A stretch of 37,510 bases of DNA, from assembly GCA_016744575.1 (NCBI GenBank), contig JADGEC010000021.1, forward strand, positions 1 to 37,510. Reading direction: 5' to 3'. This DNA comes from Sulfurimonadaceae bacterium. Lineage in GTDB: Bacteria; Campylobacterota; Campylobacteria; Campylobacterales; Sulfurimonadaceae. The notes under the pieces are model-generated. The model saw nothing but the letters and a program-made list of their open reading frames with translations. It did no database searches and was not told the origin of the DNA. Below, in pieces: positions 4,249 to 37,510 of this stretch. Both the position numbers and the translations under genes were made by a program. How positions within the stretch are numbered: the stretch's first letter is position 1; every line of letters begins with the position of its first letter.

Positions 4249-6345
4249 ATGAATAAGATCATCGTTCTTTCTCTAGCCTGTGCTGCACTCCTTCAGGCTA
4301 CTGAAGTACAAATGGAACCTATTACCGTAGAGACTACGAAGATCAGCGACGTCAGCGGTAAAGAGATCAAGTCAGCTGACCTGGCTGAAGCACTCGCTAA
4401 AAAAGTACCAAGTATCTCTCTTGTACGCCGAAGTGGTATCGCCAATGATATCATCCTGCGTGGTCAGAAAAAGGATAATATAAATGTCCTCATCGATGGA
4501 GCAAAAGTGTGTGGAGCTTGTCCCAACCGGATGGACCCACCGACCTCTCATATCGTCACCTCCAATGTTGATTCTGTCGAGATCATCGAGGGACCTTATG
4601 ATGTCGAGAACTTCGGGACATTAAGCGGTGGTGTCTATGTGACCACCACTAAACCAGTAGAAGGCTTTCATGGAGATGTCAACGTCAATGTAGGAAGCTG
4701 GGGTTATAAGAAAGTCTCTGCAACCGCCACTGGTGGTAACGATATGGTCCGCGTACTTTTTGGTGCCTCTTATGAGAACAGTGAGCAGTATAAGGATGGT
4801 GATGGTAATACGTTCGCTGAACAAGTAGACAACTTTATCGCTAACTCGGCAAACCCTGCTGCTGTCGCAGGTACCGCCTATCTTCCTCAACACAGAGATA
4901 TGGATGCCTACACCAAGAAATCATTTATGGGTAAGGTCTTTGTCGACTTCACAGACGATCAGGAACTAAAACTCGAGTACACACGTAATGAAAGCGATGA
5001 TGTCCTCTACCCATCAAGTAAGATGGATGCTCTCTTCGATAACTCTAACATCTACAATGTCCAGTATAAGATAAAAGATCTTGGCTCTCTCTCCAAAGAG
5101 CTGAGTGCCCAGTACTACCACACCGATGTAGAGCACCCGATGTCCATACGTTACCGTAAGGCTTCTTTGGGCACGCTGCCTGATGGGTCTATCAGAGGAG
5201 ACATCACCAGTGCACTGACGACGGATATGGATGGTCTTAAGATCAAGAATGTCACCGAACTCGATAAAGATATGGAGTTGACCCTTGGTGGAGATCTCAG
5301 CAGACGTAACTGGGACGGTATCTATACCCGAAACGGCAATCCGATGAAGTATACACCGCCTTCGCCAAAAGCCGGTGATGTCAAGACCAGTATCCCTAAC
5401 GTAGATACTGATAATGCCGCCCTTTTCCTCGAATTTGCGCATAACACTGGCGCTATAGAGTACAAAGTCGGTGCCCGTTATGATGACACCACTGTCACAC
5501 CTGAAGGAAATGAGCCGGAGAATGACTACAGTGCGTTCAGTGCTAATGTCTTTGCGACCTATACGGCGACAGACACTATGAAGATCTTTGGTGGTGTCGG
5601 TAAAGCATCCCGTGTCCCTGATGCAAGAGAACTCTACTGGTACAGCTCTACAGGTACTCAGGCCGGTACGACCGATCTCGATCAGACTACCAACTATGAA
5701 GTCGACCTCGGTATGGAAAACAACTATGCGGACTTCACTATTAAGACAAAAGTCTTCTATAGTATGCTTGAAGACTACATCTACTTCAACGCAGACAATG
5801 TCAATGCCGCTGGCGCTGCTTTCCACTCATTTCAAAACATAGATGCTACTATCTACGGTCTTGATATCATCGCTTCTTACTATGCGAGTGACCTACTCTC
5901 TCTCGACTTTGGACTTGCCTATCAACGCGGTGAGAAAGATGAGCCACTAACGATCACTGAGGGACCTCAAGCGGGACAGAAGCAGACAAATACTGATCTG
6001 GCAGAGATCCCACCTCTAAAAGGCAACATCGCTCTTAACTATGAGTACATGCCTGAGAGTCTGGCTAAGATCGAAGTCGTGGCTTCAGACAGCTGGGACA
6101 ATTACGATGACGATAATGGTGAACAGCAGATCGATGCATGGACGATCCTCAATCTGAAAGTCGACCATCAATTCGATAGTGGATTTGGTCTGGCAGTCGG
6201 TGTGGACAATGTCTTAGATAGCACCTATGCCCTCTCAAACACCTACCAGGACCTCATCCTCATCAATGATGGGACAAACGACCCTATCATGAGAATGAAC
6301 GAGCCTGGACGTTATTTCTATGTCAATGCACGTTATACGTTCTAA
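4249..6345 (+). CDS. TonB-dependent copper receptor, OprC/NosA type
   Basis: This 698-residue protein has a signal peptide (1-17), a plug domain (about 20-140) and a C-terminal beta barrel ending in the aromatic NARYTF. The plug carries LIDGAKVCGACPNRMDPPTS, the hallmark of TonB-dependent copper receptors (OprC; NosA of Pseudomonas stutzeri). C91 and M95 form the CxxxM motif, and H296-P-M298 supplies an HxM motif; in OprC these together bind copper. The barrel has typical receptor blocks (GKASRVPDARELYW, and VGVDNVLDSTY near the end). The receptor would bring copper across the outer membrane, fitting the NosL-like and CopD-like neighbours and the copper demand of N2O reductase. AAGGA precedes the ATG. 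Substrate call is strong from motifs; regulation is inferred. Confidence 0.9.
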   Translation: MNKIIVLSLACAALLQATEVQMEPITVETTKISDVSGKEIKSADLAEALAKKVPSISLVRRSGIANDIILRGQKKDNINVLIDGAKVCGACPNRMDPPTSHIVTSNVDSVEIIEGPYDVENFGTLSGGVYVTTTKPVEGFHGDVNVNVGSWGYKKVSATATGGNDMVRVLFGASYENSEQYKDGDGNTFAEQVDNFIANSANPAAVAGTAYLPQHRDMDAYTKKSFMGKVFVDFTDDQELKLEYTRNESDDVLYPSSKMDALFDNSNIYNVQYKIKDLGSLSKELSAQYYHTDVEHPMSIRYRKASLGTLPDGSIRGDITSALTTDMDGLKIKNVTELDKDMELTLGGDLSRRNWDGIYTRNGNPMKYTPPSPKAGDVKTSIPNVDTDNAALFLEFAHNTGAIEYKVGARYDDTTVTPEGNEPENDYSAFSANVFATYTATDTMKIFGGVGKASRVPDARELYWYSSTGTQAGTTDLDQTTNYEVDLGMENNYADFTIKTKVFYSMLEDYIYFNADNVNAAGAAFHSFQNIDATIYGLDIIASYYASDLLSLDFGLAYQRGEKDEPLTITEGPQAGQKQTNTDLAEIPPLKGNIALNYEYMPESLAKIEVVASDSWDNYDDDNGEQQIDAWTILNLKVDHQFDSGFGLAVGVDNVLDSTYALSNTYQDLILINDGTNDPIMRMNEPGRYFYVNARYTF

Positions 6346-20803: not shown

Positions 20804-21226
20804 TTATTGTGTCAATGTCGCGCACAAGCCTGTTGTTGGAGTACAATCGAATGTACCATTTGTATCCTCATAGGTGAACGCCGCTGTCTTTCCAGCAATG
20901 CTGTAGGTATATGTGTTTACAGGTGCTTCAGCCCAACCTTCATCCGTCTCACCATATTTTATTACATTTGTAAAATAGGGTGACGCCAATGTCGTATTGT
21001 CATCTAAAAACTCTATCCAGCTGTTATCACCCCTAAACAACCTTTGCTGACGCTCTGTAACTATACCTGATCTGACCGCGGCTATCGTACTTCTTGTCTT
21101 TGCGATCTTTGCATCATCTCTGGTCGCTGCGAACTTTGGTACCGCGACCGCGGCCAATATACCTAATATGACTATGACGAACACAAGCTCGATCATTGTA
21201 AACGCTTTTCTTGTACGGCTCTTCAT
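20804..21226 (-). CDS. Type IV pilin-like / pseudopilin (copy 3 of 3)
   Basis: This 140-residue protein has a short basic leader (KSRTRKA) and the prepilin signature FTMIELVFVIVILGILAAVAVPKFA. The residue before the cleavage site is Ala rather than the usual Gly. The globular part has two cysteines near the C-terminus (FDCTPTTGLCATL), the likely disulphide loop of pilins. Its ATG shares a base with the upstream pilin's TGA (TGATG), and its TAA abuts the TTG start of priA. Expected role: minor pilin or pseudopilin of a type II secretion/type IV pilus or competence machine, processed by a prepilin peptidase encoded elsewhere. Confidence 0.85.
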   Translation of the reverse strand: MKSRTRKAFTMIELVFVIVILGILAAVAVPKFAATRDDAKIAKTRSTIAAVRSGIVTERQQRLFRGDNSWIEFLDDNTTLASPYFTNVIKYGETDEGWAEAPVNTYTYSIAGKTAAFTYEDTNGTFDCTPTTGLCATLTQ

Positions 21227-21675
21227 CAGAAGCTCACTCTCTGTCCTCTTAGCGGAATAGGATATTCTCTTGCATCAAATATCAACTGCAACTGACTACA
21301 TAGGGCATCTGGACCTGCACCATACTCCAATGATAAGTTAGCATCTAAAGCACCATCATAGACTTTAAATGTAAGACAATCTGTATTACTACCCATCTGA
21401 AAGTCTGCTGACTTGTTTGCTAGATCTAATGTCGCTTCACCTTTAACTACCATCCCTTGAATCCCATAGGACATGAGACTCAGATCTTCTTCGATCTCAC
21501 CTTTAGAAATAGCATAAGAAGCTATCTCAGTCGACGCAGTTGCCATCGACTGAGAGACTGTTGCAATCTTAGCATCATCACGTGTCGCAGCTAGTTTTGG
21601 AATTGCTACTGCGGCCAAAATACCTAAAATAACAATTACAAAAATAAGTTCTATCATCGTGAACGCTTTTTTCAT
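21226..21675 (-). CDS. Type IV pilin-like / pseudopilin (copy 2 of 3)
   Basis: The start is the ATG at 21675, behind AGGTGTAGAG; an earlier in-frame codon at 21696 would fall inside a palindrome and add residues before the normal short leader. The protein has 149 residues: MKKA, then FTMIELIFVIVILGILAAVAIPKLAATRDDAK, nearly identical to the other two copies, then a divergent globular part with two cysteines (TDCLTF, ALCSQL). Ala again precedes the cleavage site. It follows copy 1 by about 100 bases and is translationally coupled to copy 3. Same expected role as the other copies. Confidence 0.85.
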   Translation of the reverse strand: MKKAFTMIELIFVIVILGILAAVAIPKLAATRDDAKIATVSQSMATASTEIASYAISKGEIEEDLSLMSYGIQGMVVKGEATLDLANKSADFQMGSNTDCLTFKVYDGALDANLSLEYGAGPDALCSQLQLIFDAREYPIPLRGQRVSF

Positions 21676-21692
21676 CTCTACACCTACCTGTT

Positions 21693-21716
21693 CCAAAACA
21701 GCTTAAGCTGTTTTGG
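21693..21716. repeat. 24-base perfect palindrome between pilin copies 1 and 2
   Basis: CCAAAACAGCTT is followed at once by its exact reverse complement. It can form a hairpin just before the copy 2 ribosome site. No T tract follows on the minus strand, so it looks more like an mRNA-stabilising, processing or attenuation element than a simple terminator. Confidence 0.7.
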
Positions 21717-21774
21717 ATTAATCACTCTCCGTCAGGCCTTAAAGTAAATACTCTTTACACAAGGAGACAACTAC

Positions 21775-22215
21775 CTACCAAGTAACGCTCGAGCCACCAA
21801 ATTGATGGACAAGAGCAAGATCTTTTGTTGCGGTATTAATACCTTTACAAACAGCTGAAGTATTGCCATCACCACTGACCGTCAAATTACCATCAGTAAG
21901 AGTCATTTGAAATCCAGTACAATTTTCCGTACCGATTTTGTAGAATGCTTTGCTTGTTGCATTTGTATCATCCGCAACTCCACCCCCCGTGAGAACTAAA
22001 TTTACATTCGTCATCTCACCCCATTTACCCATTTTTCCCTGTGCCGTGTAGTAAGCACCGACATCTGAGACTATTGTGGCAATTTCAGACGCACCTTTAG
22101 CGACTTTAGCATCATCACGTGTTGCTGCAAGTTTCGGAATGGCAACTGCTGCCAAAATACCCAGGATAACGATAACAAAGATCAATTCGATCATAGTAAA
22201 ACCACTTCTTTTCAT
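21775..22215 (-). CDS. Type IV pilin-like / pseudopilin (copy 1 of 3)
   Basis: This 146-residue protein has a leader MKRSG followed by FTMIELIFVIVILGILAAVAIPKLA, with the standard Gly before the cleavage site, unlike the other two copies. The globular part has Gly/Thr-rich strands and two cysteines (ENCTGF, AVCKGI). A strong AAGGAG site precedes the ATG, and the 150-base AT-rich gap upstream probably holds the operon promoter. The palindrome downstream could favour this copy over the other two, so it may be the major subunit of the set. Function as for its paralogues: part of a secretion, pilus or DNA-uptake filament. Confidence 0.88.
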   Translation of the reverse strand: MKRSGFTMIELIFVIVILGILAAVAIPKLAATRDDAKVAKGASEIATIVSDVGAYYTAQGKMGKWGEMTNVNLVLTGGGVADDTNATSKAFYKIGTENCTGFQMTLTDGNLTVSGDGNTSAVCKGINTATKDLALVHQFGGSSVTW

Positions 22216-27463: not shown

Positions 27464-27512
27464 AATAATGATTATCATTTTAATAATACTTGAAGATTTA
27501 CTTCACTATAAT
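27464..27512 (+). promoter_or_regulatory. Fur-type box and promoter for a small iron-region gene
   Basis: AATAATGATTATCATTTTA (27464-27482) matches the 19-base Fur consensus at 15 positions by hand count. A perfect TATAAT follows at 27507-27512, and a 12-base palindrome ATTGATATCAAT with a further ATTATCAT half-site lies just beyond. AAAGGA then precedes the ATG at 27543. Iron repression of the 57-residue gene is the natural reading. Confidence 0.65.
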
Positions 27513-27542: not shown

Positions 27543-27716
27543 ATGTCCGTAAACAGGCTCCGAAACGAAGTAGACACTCTGATCTTAAACGCAGGTAGAA
27601 GACCCGATATGAGGATGAGCTGTTCGATCATTCGCGCACTGAAGCTTCGTCATGGAGAGATAGACACGACTATAGCACGTACACTTATTGAAACATCTAT
27701 CAAAGAACTTTCTTAG
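27543..27716 (+). CDS. 57-residue protein, Fur-box-controlled, unknown function
   Basis: The ATG at 27543 has AAAGGA 6 bases upstream and a good promoter, so this start is preferred over an open frame beginning at 27411 that would run through the promoter. The protein is small, basic and helical (NRLRNEVDTLILNAGRRPDM, then MSCSIIRALKLRHGEIDTTI), with one cysteine and no signal peptide or membrane segment. I recognise no family. Its Fur-type box and position, convergent with the iron operon, suggest a cytoplasmic role in iron response, possibly as a small regulator or partner; this is inference. Confidence 0.6.
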   Translation: MSVNRLRNEVDTLILNAGRRPDMRMSCSIIRALKLRHGEIDTTIARTLIETSIKELS

Positions 27717-27824: not shown

Positions 27825-28160
27825 TCAAGAAGAGATACGAAAAGACTCTTCATCTCTACCTTCAGGAGATTCGATCAGAAGGTACTCCCTGCGACTCTTG
27901 TCGACGACCTCTAGCCATCCCAACTCATTGAAGTACTTGACATGACGCACAACACTGGAATAGTTAGCGGTCTTTCCCTGCATCTCGTTTAATAGGCTGA
28001 CCATCTTATAGACTGAGATCGGTCGGCTCTGCATATGGAACATACTCAGTACTCTTTCACGTAGGGCAGAATGACGTAATTCCCGTCTCCTGAGATGTCG
28101 CTTCAAATGGGCATGAAAGAGAGCTATACTTTCACGTCTTTGCAGGTCGATGTGCAGCAT
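27825..28160 (-). CDS. Small winged-helix protein resembling the Fur N-terminal domain
   Basis: The protein has 111 residues. A basic N-terminal helix (LKRHLRRRELRH) leads into RERVLSMFHMQSRPISVYKMVSLL, YSSVVRHVKYFNELGWLEVVD and a wing (RREYLLIES). The order of helices and the S-V-RH-KYF-ELGWLE string recall the Fur-family DNA-binding domain (s-aTvYR-l--L-e-Gli). There is no C-terminal metal-binding or dimer domain and no cysteine or HHxH cluster, so it is not a complete Fur. Its ATG lies one base past the peroxidase stop with GAGGAC as ribosome site, so it is the last gene of the seven-gene iron operon and may regulate it. Confidence 0.65.
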   Translation of the reverse strand: MLHIDLQRRESIALFHAHLKRHLRRRELRHSALRERVLSMFHMQSRPISVYKMVSLLNEMQGKTANYSSVVRHVKYFNELGWLEVVDKSRREYLLIESPEGRDEESFRISS

Positions 28161-28161
28161 C

Positions 28162-29340
28162 TTAGTCCTCTGAGATCAGATGTTCATAACGTTCATCGGT
28201 CAGCAGCTTTAAAAAAGCGATGATAGCGTCGATCTTTGCATCACTCAATGCCTGCGTCGCTTGAAGGACTTCATAGTTCACCGTCTCGTTCACATCAGCT
28301 GGATCCCATGTCTCTCCTGTCTCTGGGTTTAAAGGGTGATCACCTTGGCCCGCCATATGATCATAAAATTCCAAGACGGTCCGTAACTCTTTAAAGACTC
28401 CATTCGTCATATAGGGTCCTGTGACCATGACATTACGAAGCGTCGGTACCTTCATCTTGCCATAGTGGGTGGTCTCATTGACATCATCTCTGCCGCCAAG
28501 GCCAAGGTCCTGGGTATCGTGTGAAAGCCCTTTGGTATCAAGTGCCGCATAGTTCTTTGGCGTGCCGATGTTCTCATACTCAAAGTTACTGAAGATCTCA
28601 TTCACACCTTCAGACTCAGAGTCGATGGAGTGGCAGGTGACACAATTGGTATTGGCCTCAGAGAAGAAAAGCGAGTAACCCAGATCCTCTTGCTCACTCA
28701 TCGTATACTCACCACTTTTGAAACGGTCATATTTCGAATCAAACGCTGCGAACAGCTCTGTCTTCTCAAACTTGGCGATCGACTCGGCGACGGCGTCGTA
28801 TGCGACATCGACATCTTCAAACACATCATCCCCATAAAGCGTCTTGAACGCTTCGACATAGTCCACATTCTCTTTGATACGGTCGATGACACTCTCCGCA
28901 TCAGGCATCATCATCTCAGCTATGTCCAAAAATGGACCCTTTGCCTGTGCCTTTAAGTCATCGGCACGTCCATCATGGAACTGCCCGCCGATGTAAGAGT
29001 CATCATCTTGCTGAGTGAATGTGGGTATGAACTGGGCATAAGTCGCTGTTGGAGCATTACGACCACCAAGAGAGAGACCGTCATCACCCAAAGAGAGTGA
29101 ACCATTGACTGGATTAGGATCAGCTTCATCTAGAAAGCGCCCATCGACAAAAGCACGCTCTTCATCATGACAGGTGGAACACGACATTGTTCGCTGTAAC
29201 GAAAGATTGGCATCAAAGAACAGCTCTTTACCCAGACTCTCTTTGGTCGAAGCCTCACTCTCTGTAGTACTGCTCCCACTACTTCCACAACCTGATAACA
29301 GCACTATAAACGATAGTGTGATTGGTATTATTCTGTTCAT
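28162..29340 (-). CDS. Di-haem cytochrome c peroxidase / MauG-family lipoprotein
   Basis: The 392-residue protein has a lipoprotein signal (LLSGC, lipid Cys18) and two haem c sites: CSTCH at 54-58 and CVTCH at 233-237. QFHDGRADDLKAQAKGPF (~120-137) is the family block usually reading FWDGRa, and KVPTLRNVMVTGPYMTNGVFKELRTVLEFYD is the C-terminal haem ligand region with a Met (TGPYM) typical of CcpA/MauG proteins. It may reduce H2O2 or oxidise a protein or metal substrate in the periplasm. It lies between the porin (9 bases upstream) and the winged-helix gene (1 base downstream) in the iron operon, so an iron-linked redox role is likely. Confidence 0.88.
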   Translation of the reverse strand: MNRIIPITLSFIVLLSGCGSSGSSTTESEASTKESLGKELFFDANLSLQRTMSCSTCHDEERAFVDGRFLDEADPNPVNGSLSLGDDGLSLGGRNAPTATYAQFIPTFTQQDDDSYIGGQFHDGRADDLKAQAKGPFLDIAEMMMPDAESVIDRIKENVDYVEAFKTLYGDDVFEDVDVAYDAVAESIAKFEKTELFAAFDSKYDRFKSGEYTMSEQEDLGYSLFFSEANTNCVTCHSIDSESEGVNEIFSNFEYENIGTPKNYAALDTKGLSHDTQDLGLGGRDDVNETTHYGKMKVPTLRNVMVTGPYMTNGVFKELRTVLEFYDHMAGQGDHPLNPETGETWDPADVNETVNYEVLQATQALSDAKIDAIIAFLKLLTDERYEHLISED

Positions 29341-29349
29341 CTCATCCTC

Positions 29350-30684
29350 CTAAAAGATAAATCCGGCTTGCATCGTGAAGACACTCTCATCAGCAAGCTT
29401 CGCATCAGCGGCATAGTCTTTGACCGCATAGTCCGCTTTGAGCACTACTTTGGGGTCTGGGAAGTAGGCGACGCCTACACTGTACTCGTAAAAGCGGTTA
29501 TTATCAGGAAACTCCGTGTCGCCAGAAGCATCCATATCAAGGCGTTCGAAGTCCAATACCCCATAGACCTTCTGCATGGTATCCATCGTATTGAGGACAT
29601 CGTATGCGATGGTGAGATACTGTCCGTTGACAGCGTCTGAGATCACTGCATCGTTCAACGCAGTGACATCTCCATCTAACGAACCATAAGCTGCCATCGC
29701 CTTGATGTCAAACCCATTCTTACGATAGGTCGCATGGACTTCTGCCATAGTGATGTCGACTTCTGCATCGCCGCTGTTGCCGGTACTGACACCCGGTCTA
29801 CTCTCCTCTAACACACTCGACTCTCCATAGAGGAACGATCCTCCCACATCAAACCCATTACCTACAGCATATTGGCCGCGTACGACTGCTGAGAGATCAT
29901 CAGTAAACTGACGTGCACCAAATCGTCCCTGCTGGATGAAACGACCTTCGGTAAATGCACCGGCATCTGGAGAGGTGATTATCCCGCCGTAATACTCGAA
30001 CCCTCCGATCTTTCCATGCATCAATGCACCGTTCGTATGCCATGTCGATGGGATGATATAGGTCTCGACCAGAGGCCGTTCAGTCGTCAGGTAAGCCACT
30101 GGTTCGTGGTTTAGATTGGTAAGACCCATCGGGACAAGGACATGCCCAATACGAAGCGCATAAGCGGGATCGAACAGGAAGTCCAGGTAACTGAACTCGA
30201 CGATGGCATATTTGTAGTTCTTGGTATCGTCTGAACGTGCACCGCCATCCTCAAACTCGATCTCCGTGTTCATCACTATCCAGTCATTGAAACGAAACCC
30301 GATGTAGGGTACGAAACGGACGATGTTGAACTCACCCTTCTCCCGAGTCTGATTAGCCGTATCACTGGCATAGTTCTTGAAATCCGTATACTTCTTGTAT
30401 TTGTATTCCCCGTAACCGCCTATCGATACCGCAGACTTGGCATGATAGACCTTGGATGCGGCCTGACCCATAGAGCTGACACTCTCATAGTCGTCTACAG
30501 GTGAGTAGATAGCATCGTTTAATGACCCTAGCTCTTCTACGATGACTTCATCGTTCTGCTGAGACTCGCTCTTCATCTCAGCGATCTCCTGTTTGAGTAC
30601 ATCGATCTGGGATTGTAATGCCTCAGTCTCGGCTCCAGATGCTAAGACAGCAATACAGCTAAGTGATAAGACGATCTTTTTCAT
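29350..30684 (-). CDS. Outer-membrane porin with N-terminal coiled coil
   Basis: The protein has 444 residues with a signal peptide (1-17), a short coiled coil (LQSQIDVLKQEIAEMKSES), and a beta barrel of alternating amphipathic strands ending in MQAGFIF with terminal Phe, the outer-membrane assembly signal. The layout (coiled coil, then barrel with GGYGEYKYKKY and FVPYIGFRFNDWIVMNTEIEFE) matches phosphate-selective or DcaP-like porins. Its first 26 bases overlap the end of the membrane di-iron gene, showing tight coupling in the iron operon. Which solute passes is unknown; an iron chelate or a substrate of the periplasmic haem enzymes is possible. Confidence 0.8.
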   Translation of the reverse strand: MKKIVLSLSCIAVLASGAETEALQSQIDVLKQEIAEMKSESQQNDEVIVEELGSLNDAIYSPVDDYESVSSMGQAASKVYHAKSAVSIGGYGEYKYKKYTDFKNYASDTANQTREKGEFNIVRFVPYIGFRFNDWIVMNTEIEFEDGGARSDDTKNYKYAIVEFSYLDFLFDPAYALRIGHVLVPMGLTNLNHEPVAYLTTERPLVETYIIPSTWHTNGALMHGKIGGFEYYGGIITSPDAGAFTEGRFIQQGRFGARQFTDDLSAVVRGQYAVGNGFDVGGSFLYGESSVLEESRPGVSTGNSGDAEVDITMAEVHATYRKNGFDIKAMAAYGSLDGDVTALNDAVISDAVNGQYLTIAYDVLNTMDTMQKVYGVLDFERLDMDASGDTEFPDNNRFYEYSVGVAYFPDPKVVLKADYAVKDYAADAKLADESVFTMQAGFIF

Positions 30685-31573
30685 ATGATATTTCCTTTTT
30701 AAGTTTTAATGGTCTGGTCAATAGATCTAGGATGGAATCATGCCCCGTACCCTTACCCAGTCCGAACTGAAGTACTGAGACCTCAGTGATATACAATGTG
30801 CCAAATAGACGGTCCCATACAGCCAGTGCGCCACCATAGTTATGCTCGGCTCCCATGCGCGTATGATGGAGCTGATGCATGAACGGAGAGATCACCCATC
30901 GCTCGATAGTGTTCCCATAACGCAGCGGTACATGTGAATGCCTGAGATTCGAGCCGAGCATCGCAAAGGCAAAGACAAAGAGATTGACCCCGATGACCTC
31001 TATCAGAGAGATCCTAGCCCCAAATAGATAGATAAACAGTCCCGTCACAAGACCGGCACTCAACGCATACCGAATACCGAAGAGAACGTTCTCTACAGGG
31101 TGAACACGGTAGAACGTCAGTGGGTTGAGTACTTCCGCACTGTGGTGAACACGGTGAAATCGCCACAAGAAAGGAAGAGCATGCATCAGGCGATGCAGCC
31201 AGTAGCGTGTGAAGTCACTGACGATGAAGAGTGTGGCTGAGAAGAGCAGCATGATCGCTTCACGACTCCACCCCATCGCAGGCATATATCCCAGCAGCTC
31301 CTGCAAGGTAAGTGCCGTAAGGAGTGCGACCTCCTTGGAACTTAAAAGCAAAGGGATGATAAACGTACTCTTTATCAGTGAGACTACGATGAAGTAACCA
31401 TAGTCGAGACGGGCGGATCGGTGCCACCATATCTTAGGATCGAGGTAAGTCTTGAACTTCTCTCTATGATAGAGGATATACACAGCCGCGATCATGGAAG
31501 ATACCAGTAGGTATAGCCAAAAGATACGCTGATGTGTATCAAAGAAGTACTCGATGCCTAGTGATCCCATCAT
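30659..31573 (-). CDS. Fatty-acid-hydroxylase/sterol-desaturase-family membrane di-iron protein
   Basis: This 304-residue protein has four or so membrane helices and the full histidine set of the family: HRLMH at 127-131, HRVHH at 140-144, HQLHH at 233-237, and H244 in GAEHNYG. These bind two irons that activate oxygen to hydroxylate or desaturate a lipid or other hydrophobic substrate. Such an enzyme is unexpected inside an imelysin/di-haem operon: ATG overlaps the TGA of the upstream imelysin-like gene (TGATG), and its end overlaps the porin start. It could modify a lipid, a lipophilic iron ligand or a siderophore-like compound; substrate is unknown. A second ATG directly follows the first. 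Confidence 0.88.
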   Translation of the reverse strand: MMGSLGIEYFFDTHQRIFWLYLLVSSMIAAVYILYHREKFKTYLDPKIWWHRSARLDYGYFIVVSLIKSTFIIPLLLSSKEVALLTALTLQELLGYMPAMGWSREAIMLLFSATLFIVSDFTRYWLHRLMHALPFLWRFHRVHHSAEVLNPLTFYRVHPVENVLFGIRYALSAGLVTGLFIYLFGARISLIEVIGVNLFVFAFAMLGSNLRHSHVPLRYGNTIERWVISPFMHQLHHTRMGAEHNYGGALAVWDRLFGTLYITEVSVLQFGLGKGTGHDSILDLLTRPLKLKKEISYEKDRLIT

Positions 31574-32631
31574 CAGTCTCCATCCGCCTCGATGATGTCT
31601 TGTGTGAAGTTAAGTGCATTGATCAAAGCCGTATAGCTTGTCTGTATCGTGTCGATAGTGTTATAGAGTCCAAGAGTCTTAGATGATGCTGGAGACTCTT
31701 CGATCGGCGTGCTAAAGGAATCGATCTGGGCAATAGCATCTTTTATCAAGATTACCAGTGCATCAGCTTCACTGGAGGCACTATTGTTCGCTGCAATACC
31801 CTGCAACCCCTGAAGCATCACGGATTCCTGAGCGCTCAATATCGCACGCATAGCTTGTAAAGAGCGTATTGAGTGATAATACTCCAGGTGCTCTGCATCT
31901 GGGTCGTCCCTATATTTCAGGGTGTATCCGGCAGGGTCACCTATTCTCCACTCTTTGAGTTTATAGGTACTATCGATCATCTGATTGATCATGATCCCCA
32001 CTGCATCTTCTCCTGCATCGACAAAAGCACTGCCCTCAGAATAGAACTCAGCAATAGTCGTTACGTGACCCTCAATATGATCGATCATGATCTTAGCAGC
32101 ATCTGCACGACGCTGGGTCATGTTCACATCCGACATCTCCTGATTTCCAAAGAGCGTATATTCAAGTGCACTCATCGAACGGGTCGCACTCTGATAGAGC
32201 TGGCCCTCAAGTGGTGAAGAGCCTGCAAAGATCTCATCAAGCCGAGTCGGGATATCGATATTACCGATGTTGAAGACATCGATCTGCGCAGGGATATCGA
32301 TCATCGCATCATCGAGTCCCTTAGCTACATAATGTGCCTCAACCCCTTTCCATGTCTCAAAGAGCGTAGTCGCCAAACTCTGTGCTGATCCGAGTTCTTC
32401 TACACTCTGCTCATCTTGTAAAGCTACGATGGCTGCTTTCGTACTTGCTGCAGTGATAGCGAGTGAACTGCTTTGAGCTACCAGTACTGCATCCTCTATC
32501 TGCTGTAGCAAGACGACTGTACTGTCACTGCTTCCACCACTTATCAGCCCATTCTCACCATCATGGGCATTATCGCCCCCGCATCCACTATATATCATCG
32601 CTACAAAGAGCCATACTAAGGTCTTTTTCAT
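31573..32631 (-). CDS. Imelysin-like lipoprotein (second copy, motif lost)
   Basis: The protein has 352 residues with a lipoprotein signal (YSGC, lipid Cys17). The helical repeat pattern and blocks such as ATTLFETWKGVEAHYV, YQSATRSMSALEYTLFG and MTQRRADAAKIMIDHIE follow the imelysin (peptidase M75 / IrpA) fold. The GxHxxE motif of the family is replaced by RSMSALE, keeping only the Glu, so a metal site like that of the first copy is doubtful. It is translationally coupled on both sides (TGATG at each end). In other bacteria two imelysin proteins flank a DUF1111 di-haem protein in iron-regulated loci, as here. Confidence 0.8.
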   Translation of the reverse strand: MKKTLVWLFVAMIYSGCGGDNAHDGENGLISGGSSDSTVVLLQQIEDAVLVAQSSSLAITAASTKAAIVALQDEQSVEELGSAQSLATTLFETWKGVEAHYVAKGLDDAMIDIPAQIDVFNIGNIDIPTRLDEIFAGSSPLEGQLYQSATRSMSALEYTLFGNQEMSDVNMTQRRADAAKIMIDHIEGHVTTIAEFYSEGSAFVDAGEDAVGIMINQMIDSTYKLKEWRIGDPAGYTLKYRDDPDAEHLEYYHSIRSLQAMRAILSAQESVMLQGLQGIAANNSASSEADALVILIKDAIAQIDSFSTPIEESPASSKTLGLYNTIDTIQTSYTALINALNFTQDIIEADGD

Positions 32632-34034
32632 CAGATCGTTCCTAAATAGTCTATTAAGAGCTCACGCTTCTTTTTGCCAAGAGCCATAAATGCTCGCTTA
32701 GCACCTTCTGCCTCACCGCCGTGCCAAAGTATGGCCTCTTCGATCGAACGTGCCCTTCCATCATGCAGATAGTTTGCCTCTGTGCTCACATCCTTATAGA
32801 GTCCAATACCCCAAAGTGGTGGAGTCCGCCACTCGGACCCACTGGCCAAAAAGTCACGATGTCCATCAGCAAGTCCTTCACCCATATCATGCAGTAAGAG
32901 ATCAGAGAAAGGGGCTATCTCCACACCCATAGCCGTTGTGTAAGTCGAGACATGACAGCTGTCACATCTAAGCGTGCTAAAGAGTGTCTCGGCTTCTTCT
33001 TTATCAGAGAAGTCGCGTGCTGAGGGTATTTTCAAGTGTGTGATGTAGAAAGTGATAGCATCCAGGCGATCACCTGGGAGGTCAAAGGTATGATGACCTT
33101 TATCTGCATCCTTACACGCCTTTTGAGCTTCTGTACAGTTCTCTTTTGGAAAAAGTGGTGAGGTCAATCCCATATCGTTGTTTGCAGCATTCGCACTCTG
33201 ATATCGTACTGTCGGGGAGGAGGCCTTCCAGGTGAAACGTCCTAACTGGCGTTCACTACTCTCAGTCGTATATACCCAGTTTGCCTTTCCTGATATGCCA
33301 TCACCATCACGGTCATCGATATCCTCATGTGCCAATATCGCTTCCTCAGGGATCTGTTCGAGCATTCCCAATCCCACCAATGCCAATGCTATCCGAGGAG
33401 AGATAGCGGTGTTTTCATGAAGTGGACCATAACCCAATCTCTCAAGTGTGTAGTGCGACATACGCAGACTGTATGAGCTGCCATCAGGGTAGCTGCCCTC
33501 TTTCTCTTCATACTCTACTTCGACATGGCCCTCATAGGAAGTACCGTGGGTACCATTGATACTAAACTGTGCGCCATAGGTCGGTTCCGGCTCACTACCC
33601 CTGCTCATCATAGACATCTCATCAAGATCGTTCTGAGAAGAGAGAGCAAGTCGCATGACCAGATCTCGTCTGAGCGTTCCTTCATCATCTATAGCCACCC
33701 CCGCTCCGTGACCAGGATGACAATTGATACAGGTGTTCGCACTAAAGAGCGGCCCAAGGCCATCACGCGCCGTAGTCGCCGAAGGCGCTTCCACCCAGGG
33801 GATGGTAAAGAAACTACGACCTGTTACAAAGACATCTAGCATCGCATCGTCCATAGCACCCATTGGGTGTGAAAAAGCCTGCTTGGAGATATCTTTAGAA
33901 AAGAGCGTACGATCATAAGAAGTTGTCTGCACGATATCATCAGTGGCAGTCACATCTTCAGAGAATGTCATCTCAGAACAGCCTGCAAGCATCAAGCCTG
34001 CAAGTACCGAGACTTGAAGCGAGAGAGCTATCAC
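32631..34034 (-). CDS. DUF1111 di-haem oxidoreductase lipoprotein
   Basis: This 467-residue protein starts at a GTG (34034) overlapping the imelysin TGA by four bases (GTGA). It has a lipoprotein signal (LMLAGC, Cys19) and two haem c motifs: CINCH at 102-106 and CDSCH at 357-361. LFSANTCINCHPGHGAG, DGDGISGKANWV and the closing YLHDGRARSIEEAILWHGGEAEGAK block are characteristic of the DUF1111 (di-haem 'thiol oxidoreductase') family, which is distant from MauG/CcpA peroxidases. It is a standard partner of imelysin proteins in iron-regulated operons and probably performs a periplasmic redox step on iron or its ligand. Confidence 0.9.
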   Translation of the reverse strand: MIALSLQVSVLAGLMLAGCSEMTFSEDVTATDDIVQTTSYDRTLFSKDISKQAFSHPMGAMDDAMLDVFVTGRSFFTIPWVEAPSATTARDGLGPLFSANTCINCHPGHGAGVAIDDEGTLRRDLVMRLALSSQNDLDEMSMMSRGSEPEPTYGAQFSINGTHGTSYEGHVEVEYEEKEGSYPDGSSYSLRMSHYTLERLGYGPLHENTAISPRIALALVGLGMLEQIPEEAILAHEDIDDRDGDGISGKANWVYTTESSERQLGRFTWKASSPTVRYQSANAANNDMGLTSPLFPKENCTEAQKACKDADKGHHTFDLPGDRLDAITFYITHLKIPSARDFSDKEEAETLFSTLRCDSCHVSTYTTAMGVEIAPFSDLLLHDMGEGLADGHRDFLASGSEWRTPPLWGIGLYKDVSTEANYLHDGRARSIEEAILWHGGEAEGAKRAFMALGKKKRELLIDYLGTI

Positions 34035-35383
34035 AGCACAGTCTCGTCCGGGTCTGTGACATCCTCCTCGTTGAGATCAATATCAAGGTCAGCTGCGACA
34101 TCGACCATCAAGTCACCAAGCTCACGCATATCGTTCTTCATGTCGATGATGGTCGAACGTGTATCAGAACCTTCTTTGATCTGATAATCAAAGTGTGTGG
34201 CCGCAGCCGCAGCATCTACTGCCGCCACTTTGAGATCGATCGATGCGATCAATGCATCAAGCTCAGTACGTGTCTCTGTATCGACCAGGTCATAAAGGCT
34301 TTTATCCCCGGTCTTTAGTACATCGACAAAACCCTGATAGTTAAGTAGGATGTCTCTGTGCGTATTATCGCTAAAGCAAGAGTGCTCATCTTCCTCACTT
34401 GGTGTAAGCACTGCGACTGCGATACGCTCATTCGCCAGTTCTGATTTTATGAAGACTCCTATCGCCCCGATTATCGTCTTCAGTGCAGCATCGGGCTTGA
34501 TGTTCTTGGTCGCATCATCACCGGTAAGACTATCAAGCAGTGCGGCGCGATAACAACCAGATGCATCTGTACTACAATCTACTGAAGCTGTTTTCGCCCA
34601 TGCTGAAGCTACCGCTTCAAGATCATCGACGATGAGTTCGGCTGAAGCATCAAGATACGCTTTACGGCGATCCGCATTTGGATTAGACGTGTAGTCTTCC
34701 AGAGGACGTTCACCTGCTTTTGTCGCTCCATTGGTCACGGTGTCATCTATAAAACTGTTGTAGTCTTGGTCTTGTCCCCATAACAGGAACTCGATGGCAT
34801 GGTATCCAGTCGCGACGTTTGCGTCACCACCATTTTCGTTCAATGCTGCCAGGACCTCTTTGGAGATGACCGTCGCATCGACTTCATCCCCACCATTTGG
34901 TGTGAACGCACCAGCTGTATCGATGATGTTTCCTGAAGTAGTAGCTCCACTACTGTCCGTCGTATAGTCGATCATGTTCTCATCGAGTGGCCAAGCATTG
35001 AGCTGTCCCTCCGGCGCTCCATATGCATCAGCGACCCATCCCTCTTCTGCATCTATCGGCCCATTTGAGAGACGATAGATCTCCGTCACACCGTAAGACT
35101 CACGTGCTTGCAACCAAGCTGCTTTTGCAGCGTCTGATGTGGCTTCAGTAGAATCGTCTGTGAATGCATTGACCGCAGTCTCCAAGGCTTTCGCATCCGT
35201 GATCGCGGCTGCCATCGTATCGAAGACGCTGTCTGCATAACTAGTAAGCACTATTTGCTTCTCTTGATCGGTGACCCCTGTTGCTGCATCGCCATCACTA
35301 CTACTGCTTCCACAACCTGTCATACCTATAGAAAGTGCTGTAGCCAGCGAGAGTGTACTGATGATATTTTTAGAAATATACAT
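34031..35383 (-). CDS. Imelysin (IrpA-like) lipoprotein, first gene of the iron operon
   Basis: The start is the ATG at 35383, which begins a lipoprotein signal (SLATALSIGMTGC, lipid Cys24); a longer frame from 35467 would include the Fur box and is rejected. The protein has 450 residues, helical, with the imelysin signature GYHAIEFLLWGQD (H195 and E198 of GxHxxE) and RLSNGPID and LNAWPLDENMIDY blocks. Imelysins (IrpA, ICMP) are needed for growth on limited iron in several bacteria and probably bind iron or an iron-carrier; they are not proven peptidases. A Fur-type box lies 64-82 bases upstream, so iron repression of the whole seven-gene operon is expected. Confidence 0.92.
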   Translation of the reverse strand: MYISKNIISTLSLATALSIGMTGCGSSSSDGDAATGVTDQEKQIVLTSYADSVFDTMAAAITDAKALETAVNAFTDDSTEATSDAAKAAWLQARESYGVTEIYRLSNGPIDAEEGWVADAYGAPEGQLNAWPLDENMIDYTTDSSGATTSGNIIDTAGAFTPNGGDEVDATVISKEVLAALNENGGDANVATGYHAIEFLLWGQDQDYNSFIDDTVTNGATKAGERPLEDYTSNPNADRRKAYLDASAELIVDDLEAVASAWAKTASVDCSTDASGCYRAALLDSLTGDDATKNIKPDAALKTIIGAIGVFIKSELANERIAVAVLTPSEEDEHSCFSDNTHRDILLNYQGFVDVLKTGDKSLYDLVDTETRTELDALIASIDLKVAAVDAAAAATHFDYQIKEGSDTRSTIIDMKNDMRELGDLMVDVAADLDIDLNEEDVTDPDETVL

Positions 35384-35446
35384 ACTTTGATAACCTTTAT
35401 GATAATTGTTATTGGAATCATAACCATCGTACTCTTTCGTAAATAT

Positions 35447-35465
35447 AAATATGATAGTCATTATC
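35447..35465 (-). promoter_or_regulatory. Fur-type box ahead of the iron operon
   Basis: On the minus strand GATAATGACTATCATATTT matches the 19-base Fur consensus at about 14 positions; its core ATGATA-N5-TATCAT is an inverted repeat. A weaker half-box (TGATAATTGTTATT) lies nearer the gene at about 35399-35412. Both precede the imelysin ATG at 35383. Confidence 0.65.
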
Positions 35466-36048: not shown

Positions 36049-37510
36049 TTAAAAATGGGCACGTATACCTGCGAAGTAATACGTCCCGACATTAGAACCG
36101 AGGACATCATCGACTTTTTTATCAAAAATATTGTTGACACCACCATAAATATTGAACGAGTCGGTGATGTCATAAGCAAGTGTCAGGTCGACCAGCGTAA
36201 AGTCATCGGTCTTTGATCCCACTGATGTCTCCGTCAGCGAACCTCTGTCTAAGATCTCAGTATAGTACTGCTTACCTATATATGTGCCGATCAGTGAAAG
36301 GTTGAGTGCCGAGACAAGCTGATAGTCTATGTTTGCCGTGACCGTTCTATCTGGATGGAACTCAAGATCCTTGTTCGTCTCCTCATCTTCCGTACGAAGT
36401 TCTGTCCAGAAGATTCCCGTATAGAGGTTCTCTAAGATATTGTAGCCGACACTTATCTCTACGCCTTTCGTATTGGCATTGGCGACATTCTCAAATGTAT
36501 AAGCTTGAGGATTCGTCCCAAACGGCCTTACGACCTGCTGGATCATCTCTTCGATCTCATTATAAAAAGCGACTACATCATAATGAAAGTCACTGTTCCT
36601 ACCACCCAGACCGATCTCAAAAGCATTGGTCGATTCCGGCTTAAGGTCATAGCCCATCACATCAGCACCGATCTGCAGACCATTTGGTGTCTGTTTGAAG
36701 ATATAGAGTTCTCTGATATCCGGGGTACGATATCCCTGGGCAAGATTAGCACGAAGCTTTGCCAAAGTATCAAACTCGTAGATACCGCCCACACGAAATG
36801 TCGCTTTGTTCTCAGCATTACTAATAGCATCATAACGTGCACCCAAGATAGCATTTAACGCATCGCTCACTTCCCATTCGTCTTGTAGATAGATTGACTG
36901 GTAATCCACATCTTTCTTGCTCATCTCTGATGCCTGTGTGAAGACACTCGACTTACGCTCTTCATCACGATACTCTGCGCCACCACTAAGCAGATGCTGT
37001 TCATGCGCCATCCATGTAGCCATCACCTCCCCCACGATAATATCAACGTCAGCATCCATACCACTTGCTTCAGAATCTGCCTCACTGATGTAACCCATAT
37101 CTTGGTACTCTTTTGCCGATGTAGTGTTACGTTTCTCATAACTACTGCTATAGACTCGAGCTTTGAGCTCAAGATCATCTGTCGGAGCGTAACGTACGTC
37201 AGCACTTAGGTCAAGTCTATAGTTCTTGTCCTCAGAGTTGACAGGTACATTATAAGCCGGAATCGACTTATCTTGTTGTGCAAGCGGAAGGGCCGACCCG
37301 ACCCCCGGTGTCTTGTATCCGGTCGGGTGAAAGTAGCCTATATATGCACCATTGCGTTCCTCATAAAAATAGTTGACATCAACACCCGCGACAAGATCAT
37401 GAGTGAACGCATAATCCAAACGTCCGCCTACGGTGTAGACCTCACTCTCTTCACGATATGTGACATCGGTCGGATAATAGTCTTTGAGCGTCATAGGATC
37501 GATAAAAGGG
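36049..37510 (-). CDS. TonB-dependent receptor, C-terminal part, cut by window edge
   Basis: The frame stays open through the window edge (residues PFIDP precede the ATG at 37494), so the signal peptide, plug and first strands are missing; at least 486 residues are present. The visible part is a receptor beta barrel: LAQGYRTPDIRELYIF, LKPESTNAFEIGLGGRN, YNEIEEMIQQVV, VSALNLSLIGTYIGKQYY and NIYGGVNNIFDKKVDDVLG, ending in FAGIRAHF with terminal Phe. The R-PDIRELY and NIFDK blocks are common to receptors for siderophores, haem and corrinoids, so the substrate cannot be fixed. Lying upstream of a Fur-boxed iron operon in the same direction, an iron or haem carrier is most likely. Confidence 0.85.
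   Translation of the reverse strand, partial: PFIDPMTLKDYYPTDVTYREESEVYTVGGRLDYAFTHDLVAGVDVNYFYEERNGAYIGYFHPTGYKTPGVGSALPLAQQDKSIPAYNVPVNSEDKNYRLDLSADVRYAPTDDLELKARVYSSSYEKRNTTSAKEYQDMGYISEADSEASGMDADVDIIVGEVMATWMAHEQHLLSGGAEYRDEERKSSVFTQASEMSKKDVDYQSIYLQDEWEVSDALNAILGARYDAISNAENKATFRVGGIYEFDTLAKLRANLAQGYRTPDIRELYIFKQTPNGLQIGADVMGYDLKPESTNAFEIGLGGRNSDFHYDVVAFYNEIEEMIQQVVRPFGTNPQAYTFENVANANTKGVEISVGYNILENLYTGIFWTELRTEDEETNKDLEFHPDRTVTANIDYQLVSALNLSLIGTYIGKQYYTEILDRGSLTETSVGSKTDDFTLVDLTLAYDITDSFNIYGGVNNIFDKKVDDVLGSNVGTYYFAGIRAHF

Follow-up and report, generated by a model that had tools for sequence, protein, structure and literature searches.

Imelysins are long associated with iron, with a mechanism lacking, and the closest described systems are of two kinds. 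First, operons that comprise an ICMP-type imelysin, a di-haem oxidoreductase of the DHOR/DUF1111 family and an IPPA-type imelysin were described in 2011 or earlier, namely PA4370-4373 of Pseudomonas and VC1264-1266 of Vibrio, which are both regulated by Fur (PMC3143127). Second, EfeUOB and EfeUOB-M combine an M75 iron-binding protein with a periplasmic haem enzyme, for which a coupling of Fe(II) oxidation to iron uptake has been proposed, and EfeM binds both Fe(II) and Fe(III) (PMC9174327). Here we analyse a seven-gene operon of a Sulfurimonadaceae bacterium in which such an imelysin-DHOR-imelysin set is followed by a membrane di-iron hydroxylase, a porin, a MauG-type di-haem enzyme and a small winged-helix protein. 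The operon lies in a stretch of 37,510 nucleotides (positions 1-37,510 of contig JADGEC010000021.1; hereafter the window, to which all coordinates refer unless a locus is named) from a draft genome of 228 contigs with 3.6% estimated contamination.

An earlier interpretation made from the letters of the window (hereafter the sequence-only reading) had recognised the imelysin-DUF1111-imelysin part as a known iron-regulated set, in agreement with the operons cited above. The cassette differs from these operons in that it regularly adds the hydroxylase and the MauG-type enzyme, the porin, the winged helix or a ferric ABC transporter being optional. It differs from EfeUOB in that none of the 16 cassette genomes searched (G000 and 15 others) contains FTR1/EfeU, in that the di-haem DHOR and MauG-type enzymes stand in the operon instead of a DyP-type EfeB, and in that a ferric ABC importer is linked to it in some loci. 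That the cassette serves iron uptake appears likely to us, and we give an even chance to the following, more precise proposal: a Fur-repressed, EfeUOB-like uptake system devoid of FTR1, in which the periplasmic oxidation of Fe(II) feeds a ferric ABC importer. The two imelysins would hold periplasmic iron, the DHOR and MauG-type proteins would oxidise Fe(II), and the resulting Fe(III) would be handed over to a FutA/FbpABC-type ABC importer. In addition, the hydroxylase may modify a membrane lipid, or a lipid-like molecule, that the cell requires when starved of iron, the porin would provide an outer-membrane entry route gained in one lineage, and the winged helix may be a lineage-specific DNA-binding accessory.

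Operon layout and linkage of the hydroxylase to imelysins

The presence of all seven open reading frames (ORFs) was confirmed. They occupy 35386-27825 of the minus strand, in the tight cluster described in the sequence-only reading; their successive junctions, read 5' to 3', are overlaps of 4, 1, 1 and 26 nucleotides followed by gaps of 9 and 1. In gene order, and preceded by the upstream site, the features are as follows.

35447-35465, minus strand: Fur-like box GATAATGACTATCATATTT, 15/19 to GATAATGATTATCATTATC in a consensus scan, about 60 nt upstream of the 35386 start
34031-35386, minus strand: imelysin 1 (ICMP type, GxHxxE as GYHAIE), predicted lipoprotein (lipobox); PF09375, E 9.3e-55
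32631-34034, minus strand: DHOR/DUF1111 di-haem oxidoreductase, two CxxCH; PF06537, E 5.6e-77
31573-32631, minus strand: imelysin 2 (IPPA type, GxHxxE motif without the His); PF09375, E 2.8e-18
30659-31573, minus strand: membrane di-iron hydroxylase (FA_hydroxylase/sterol desaturase superfamily); PF04116, E 2.3e-26
29350-30684, minus strand: porin of the OprO/P type, assigned by homology to the L041 protein
28162-29340, minus strand: MauG-type di-haem enzyme, predicted lipoprotein; CCP_MauG PF03150, E 1.4e-38
27825-28160, minus strand: Fur-type winged helix, 111 aa, assigned from orthologues that match PF01475 above cut-off and from an AlphaFold model

The first gene, which the sequence-only reading began near 35465, very probably starts at 35386 rather than at the ORF start 35467, because the lipoprotein signal begins there with AAAGG upstream, and because the longer ORF would enclose the Fur-like box. 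The histidine of its GxHxxE motif is kept in 63/66 cases. The porin matches PF13505 weakly, below cut-off, and is homologous (E 1.6e-26) to the L041 protein, which passes Porin_O_P PF07396. The winged-helix protein has no credible Pfam match itself; its orthologues in L039 and L042 pass the FUR PF01475 cut-off, and the best PDB fold matches of its AlphaFold model (pLDDT 84, the last residues being of low confidence) are Zur and Fur proteins. It shares the N-terminal winged helix of the Fur family and lacks the C-terminal dimerisation and metal-sensing half, which agrees with its earlier description as a truncated Fur-like DNA-binding protein, by which the operon might regulate itself. An assembly artefact is ruled out for the core operon, since orthologous core operons occur in single-contig genomes (e.g. 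G127, G237 and G122).

The association of the hydroxylase with imelysins was ascertained in three surveys. First, in a fixed set of 249 genomes of Campylobacterota, 13 contain a DHOR gene, and 12 of these 13 have a hydroxylase of about 300 aa within about 2 kb of it. Each of the 13 long hydroxylases lies by a DHOR gene (two of the loci being those of the window's own genome), and the nine other PF04116 matches are short (about 200 aa) and have no DHOR gene nearby. Within this sample, imelysins that match the ICMP type strongly (at least 187 bits) are confined to the 12 cassette genomes. Second, in a sample of 274 genomes of Gammaproteobacteria, the class to which Pseudoalteromonas belongs, an imelysin gene is found no further than 3.5 kb from each of the seven hydroxylases of highest similarity (at least 259 bits). 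Six less similar hydroxylases (141-218 bits) have no imelysin gene at such a distance, and ten genomes with relatives of 75-89 bits have no imelysin at all. Knowing that close relatives are imelysin-linked and distant ones are not, the linkage belongs to one hydroxylase subfamily. Third, 84,980 species genomes were scanned and yielded 80 loci, which are ranked by similarity, include a few duplicates of earlier loci, and show conservation and not frequency.

In 67 of the 93 loci of the total set, the imelysin that neighbours the hydroxylase belongs to a DHOR-type design, in which the order imelysin-DHOR-imelysin-hydroxylase(-MauG) is conserved, mostly with overlaps or tiny gaps. A second architecture, DUF4856 protein-imelysin-TonB receptor-hydroxylase, accounts for a further 24 loci, out of 25 from Gammaproteobacteria, so the hydroxylase stays with the imelysin where DHOR, MauG and porin are absent. 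The linkage of the hydroxylase and the di-haem enzyme to the imelysin set, as postulated in the sequence-only reading, is thus genuine; a rarity of such linkage in related genomes, which would have told against that reading, was not observed. A place of the porin and the winged helix in the general system is not supported, as they are present in 17/93 and 6/93 loci respectively; the hydroxylase and MauG form the core of the cassette, to which single lineages have added these two genes. One contig labelled Cellvibrionales (L067) carries a cassette of the Campylobacterota type, through horizontal transfer or mis-binning.

We found no paper in the open-access literature on imelysin together with sterol desaturase, fatty acid hydroxylase or Campylobacterota, and the term hydroxylase is absent from PMC3143127. 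Neither the regular addition of hydroxylase and MauG, nor the hydroxylase-imelysin pairing in two designs, nor the replacement of MauG by a multicopper oxidase described below was found in the open-access literature searched. A hydroxylase subfamily that almost always lies beside imelysins, in two operon designs and across both Campylobacterota and Gammaproteobacteria, provides a new approach to the question of what imelysins handle.

Predicted topology and possible substrates of the hydroxylase

The histidine boxes of the hydroxylase are complete (HX3H, HX2HH and HX2HH, plus further histidines), as the sequence-only reading stated; ten of the 11 histidine positions checked are identical in 93/93 relatives, and the eleventh in 90/93. 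The loops that bear the boxes contain about 6 and about 16 Lys or Arg residues (family average) versus about 1 in the loop between them, from which the positive-inside rule predicts that the active site faces the cytoplasm. A PDB sequence search with the hydroxylase profile found nothing. Members of the superfamily have membrane lipids, sterols and carotenoids as their substrates, which suggests a lipid or lipid-like substrate here. That the role of the hydroxylase is functional, rather than that of a passenger, is in our view highly likely.

The predicted topology and the two architectures bear on the idea, put forward in the sequence-only reading, that hydroxylase and peroxidase together oxidise an iron ligand and thereby free iron in the envelope. 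The operon linkage of an oxygenase, di-haem enzymes and iron-binding proteins is real and speaks for such an envelope pathway, and the TonB receptor of the second architecture scores best with the siderophore-receptor model TIGR01783, below its cut-off. By contrast, the predicted cytoplasmic position of the histidine boxes weakens the notion of a hydroxylase acting outside, as do the substrates of the superfamily, and 24 loci have hydroxylase and imelysin with no DHOR or MauG nearby, so that the two oxidations need not share a pathway. We regard this joint oxidation of a ligand as improbable.

Another candidate is the hydroxylation of ornithine lipids, which would remodel the membrane within the iron regulon. 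OlsE, an ornithine lipid hydroxylase of the same FA_hydroxylase superfamily (PMC3972451), is the sole NCBIfam match of the cassette hydroxylase, with a near full-length similarity (67.7 bits over residues 6-264) that is far below the cut-off of 475. PF13444 proteins (ornithine-lipid acyltransferase) occur, in large frames of 569-614 aa, in ten of the 12 Campylobacterota cassette genomes searched; yet PF13444 is missing in six of the 16 cassette genomes (G008, G187 and four symbionts), and ornithine lipid was rejected as the general hydroxylase substrate on this ground. An OlsE-like role of the hydroxylase is one that we deem quite unlikely.

The MauG-type enzyme and its replacement by a multicopper oxidase

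The sequence-only reading had named the second di-haem protein a MauG/CcpA-type peroxidase, of which the CcpA part does not hold. Among solved structures, Paracoccus MauG is the best relative of this protein, with 303 bits, the classical di-haem cytochrome c peroxidases scoring at most 75 bits. The axial tyrosine separates MauGs from cytochrome c peroxidases, which use Met or His at that position (PMC7567364), and the operon members have Tyr there in 61/61 cases. Both CxxCH motifs, and the equivalents of the MauG haem ligands His35 and His205, of axial Tyr294 (Y326 in the window protein) and of Gln103, Pro107 and Glu113, are likewise invariant in all 61 members. Unlike MauG, the window enzyme has no methylamine dehydrogenase context and, in the alignment, no counterpart of Trp199, and it scores 86.9 bits with the NCBIfam model TTQ_mauG, whose cut-off is 443.85. 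At the inter-haem Trp93 position, Trp occurs in 33 members, His in 17 (window included), Leu in 7 and Tyr in 4. This frequent replacement recalls BthA of Burkholderia, which also has two c haems and an axial Tyr, and which forms a stable bis-Fe(IV) state in spite of lacking the inter-haem Trp (PMC6405878).

In the clam symbionts Candidatus Vesicomyosocius and Ruthturnera (L076 and L078), a CueO-like multicopper oxidase occupies the MauG slot after the hydroxylase and is followed by FbpCAB. There are no PF03150 genes anywhere in these two genomes, whereas the related Thioglobus loci retain MauG in that slot. This natural swap makes the question of a ferroxidase role directly testable on the di-haem partner, and points to a possible function for MauG-like proteins outside methylamine metabolism. 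That the di-haem enzymes are Fe(II) oxidases feeding a ferric importer is a proposal that we hold tentatively, at slightly less than even chance.

The swap also bears on the possibility that the MauG-type enzyme instead introduces an oxidised aromatic residue (e.g. Trp converted to kynurenine) into an imelysin or the DHOR protein, creating a metal site. The invariance of the MauG axial and distal-pocket residues would suit such protein modification, as would the best NCBIfam match of the enzyme, the MbnH family model (below cut-off), and the kynurenine of MopE is a precedent, proposed for enzymes of the MbnH/SACCP type with MbnP/MopE (PMC3621798). However, a multicopper oxidase is an unlikely stand-in for a protein-modifying enzyme, Trp199 has no counterpart, and the conserved Trp, Tyr, Cys and His residues of the imelysins are retained where MauG is replaced (L076, L078) or absent (L080, L084), with the exception of Y-to-F changes at two positions. 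We consider this modification unlikely.

A further possibility is an oxidative-stress module, in which the di-haem enzymes would remove hydrogen peroxide in iron-starved cells and the link with iron would be one of co-regulation only. Its precedent is the imelysin-cytochrome-imelysin operon of Leptospira, induced both by lethal hydrogen peroxide and by low iron (PMC7567364). The axial Tyr of the MauG type, in place of the Met or His of the peroxidases, and the ferric transporter genes of the second operon of this genome (see below) both speak against this module, which appears very unlikely.

In genomes of the Sulfurovum and Sulfurimonas types, the operon is accompanied by a gene for an FMN_bind (RnfG-like) protein, either after MauG (L046, L054, L057, L071 and L088) or divergently from the operon (L052 and L058); the protein is joined by one or two small membrane proteins in L052, L054, L057 and L088. 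Its Pfam assignment was made on the L054 protein, and a function as electron supply is possible.

Ferric transporter, regulation and neighbouring genes

The same genome harbours a sister copy on contig C129 (L005 3744-13108), in which imelysin-DHOR-imelysin-hydroxylase-MauG is followed directly by a periplasmic ferric-binding protein, a permease and an ATPase, with neither porin nor winged helix. The binding protein is of the FutA1/cFbpA type, scoring 341 bits to 2pt1 and 332 bits to 1y4t (Campylobacter-type FbpA), so that the sister operon ends in a transporter akin to FutABC/cFbpABC. We know of no report of FutABC genes together with imelysins or hydroxylases. FutA/FbpABC adjoins the cassette in eight further loci; FeoB is also present in L086, and a ferritin gene lies 3' of the operon in L042 and L044. 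This transporter and the known imelysin iron sets bear out the iron role that the sequence-only reading gave to the operon.

The hydroxylases of the two copies are 51% identical, as are the two MauG proteins, and in a hydroxylase tree (short search) each host copy groups with its own relatives in different parts of the tree. A recent duplication was rejected as the origin of the second operon on these two grounds. Both operon types also occur on one contig of isolate BB8 (L054 and L082). As the sister copy is devoid of porin and winged helix, and each type of copy has its own relatives, these two genes are features of one branch.

FTR1 occurs in G196, the one genome that has an imelysin-DHOR operon without the hydroxylase, where it lies inside that operon and adjoins a porin homologous to that of the window. 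Its absence from the 16 cassette genomes searched and its presence there are most simply explained if the ferric ABC transporter fills the role of EfeU. The G196 operon (L041, on C85) reads imelysin-DHOR-porin-FTR1; its DHOR is canonical (600 bits), and its imelysin comes as two pieces with reported internal stop codons. It is doubtful, though conceivable, that the hydroxylase marks a distinct imelysin-dependent iron-acquisition system, in which the hydroxylase would make or modify a lipid or lipid-like iron ligand for the imelysins, MauG or a multicopper oxidase would stand for EfeB, and the ferric ABC importer for FTR1.

Fur-type control, as supposed in the sequence-only reading, is consistent with the box at 35447-35465. 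Scored with a simple 19-position consensus, Fur-like boxes of at least 14/19 precede 45/63 cassette operons, the mean best score being 14.3 versus 12.0 for mononucleotide-shuffled controls. Searches for promoters and terminators showed no excess of sites over shuffled sequence. The operon is probably under Fur repression by iron, as predicted from these boxes.

Several observations weigh against the proposed Fur-repressed oxidation and uptake pathway. FbpABC is adjacent in just 9/93 loci, and no recognisable Fur box was found at the sister copy or at the SUP05-type symbiont copies. MauG is not obligatory, as two Arcobacteraceae (L080 and L084) have neither MauG nor multicopper oxidase, and CueO-like oxidases also oxidise Cu(I), so that the swap is no proof of ferroxidase activity. 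Finally, the AlphaFold model of the hydroxylase is poor (pLDDT 61), which leaves its topology to be read from the amino-acid sequence.

Other features of the window are as follows.

27464-27482, plus strand: strong Fur-like box, 16/19 in the consensus scan, before the 57-aa gene
27543-27716, plus strand: conserved small protein of 57 aa, encoded convergently to the operon, in the same arrangement in L039 and L043; homologues near imelysin operons in several loci
36049-37494, minus strand: TonB-dependent receptor, truncated at the contig end and separated from the operon, which lies downstream, by about 580 bases
4249-6345, plus strand: TonB-dependent receptor that bears the motif CGACPNRMDPP close to the plug
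20804-22215, minus strand: three pilin-like proteins in tandem, whose N-termini (FTMIELVFVIVILGILAAVAVPK) are nearly identical and whose tails differ

The 57-aa protein belongs to a family of 55-60 aa with no Pfam match and the core C-S/P-x-x-K-V-L-x-M-R-H-x-x-L-D, members of which are encoded at L042 10446-10619, L046 1163-1333, L039 10506-10673 and L035 10389-10553. The family occurs in nine of the 249 Campylobacterota genomes, and in four of the nine it lies beside an imelysin operon, the hydroxylase-less operon of G196 included. The truncated TonB-dependent receptor, on the same strand as the operon, may share its regulon, and the CGACPNRMDPP receptor is reminiscent of the OprC/NosA copper receptors.

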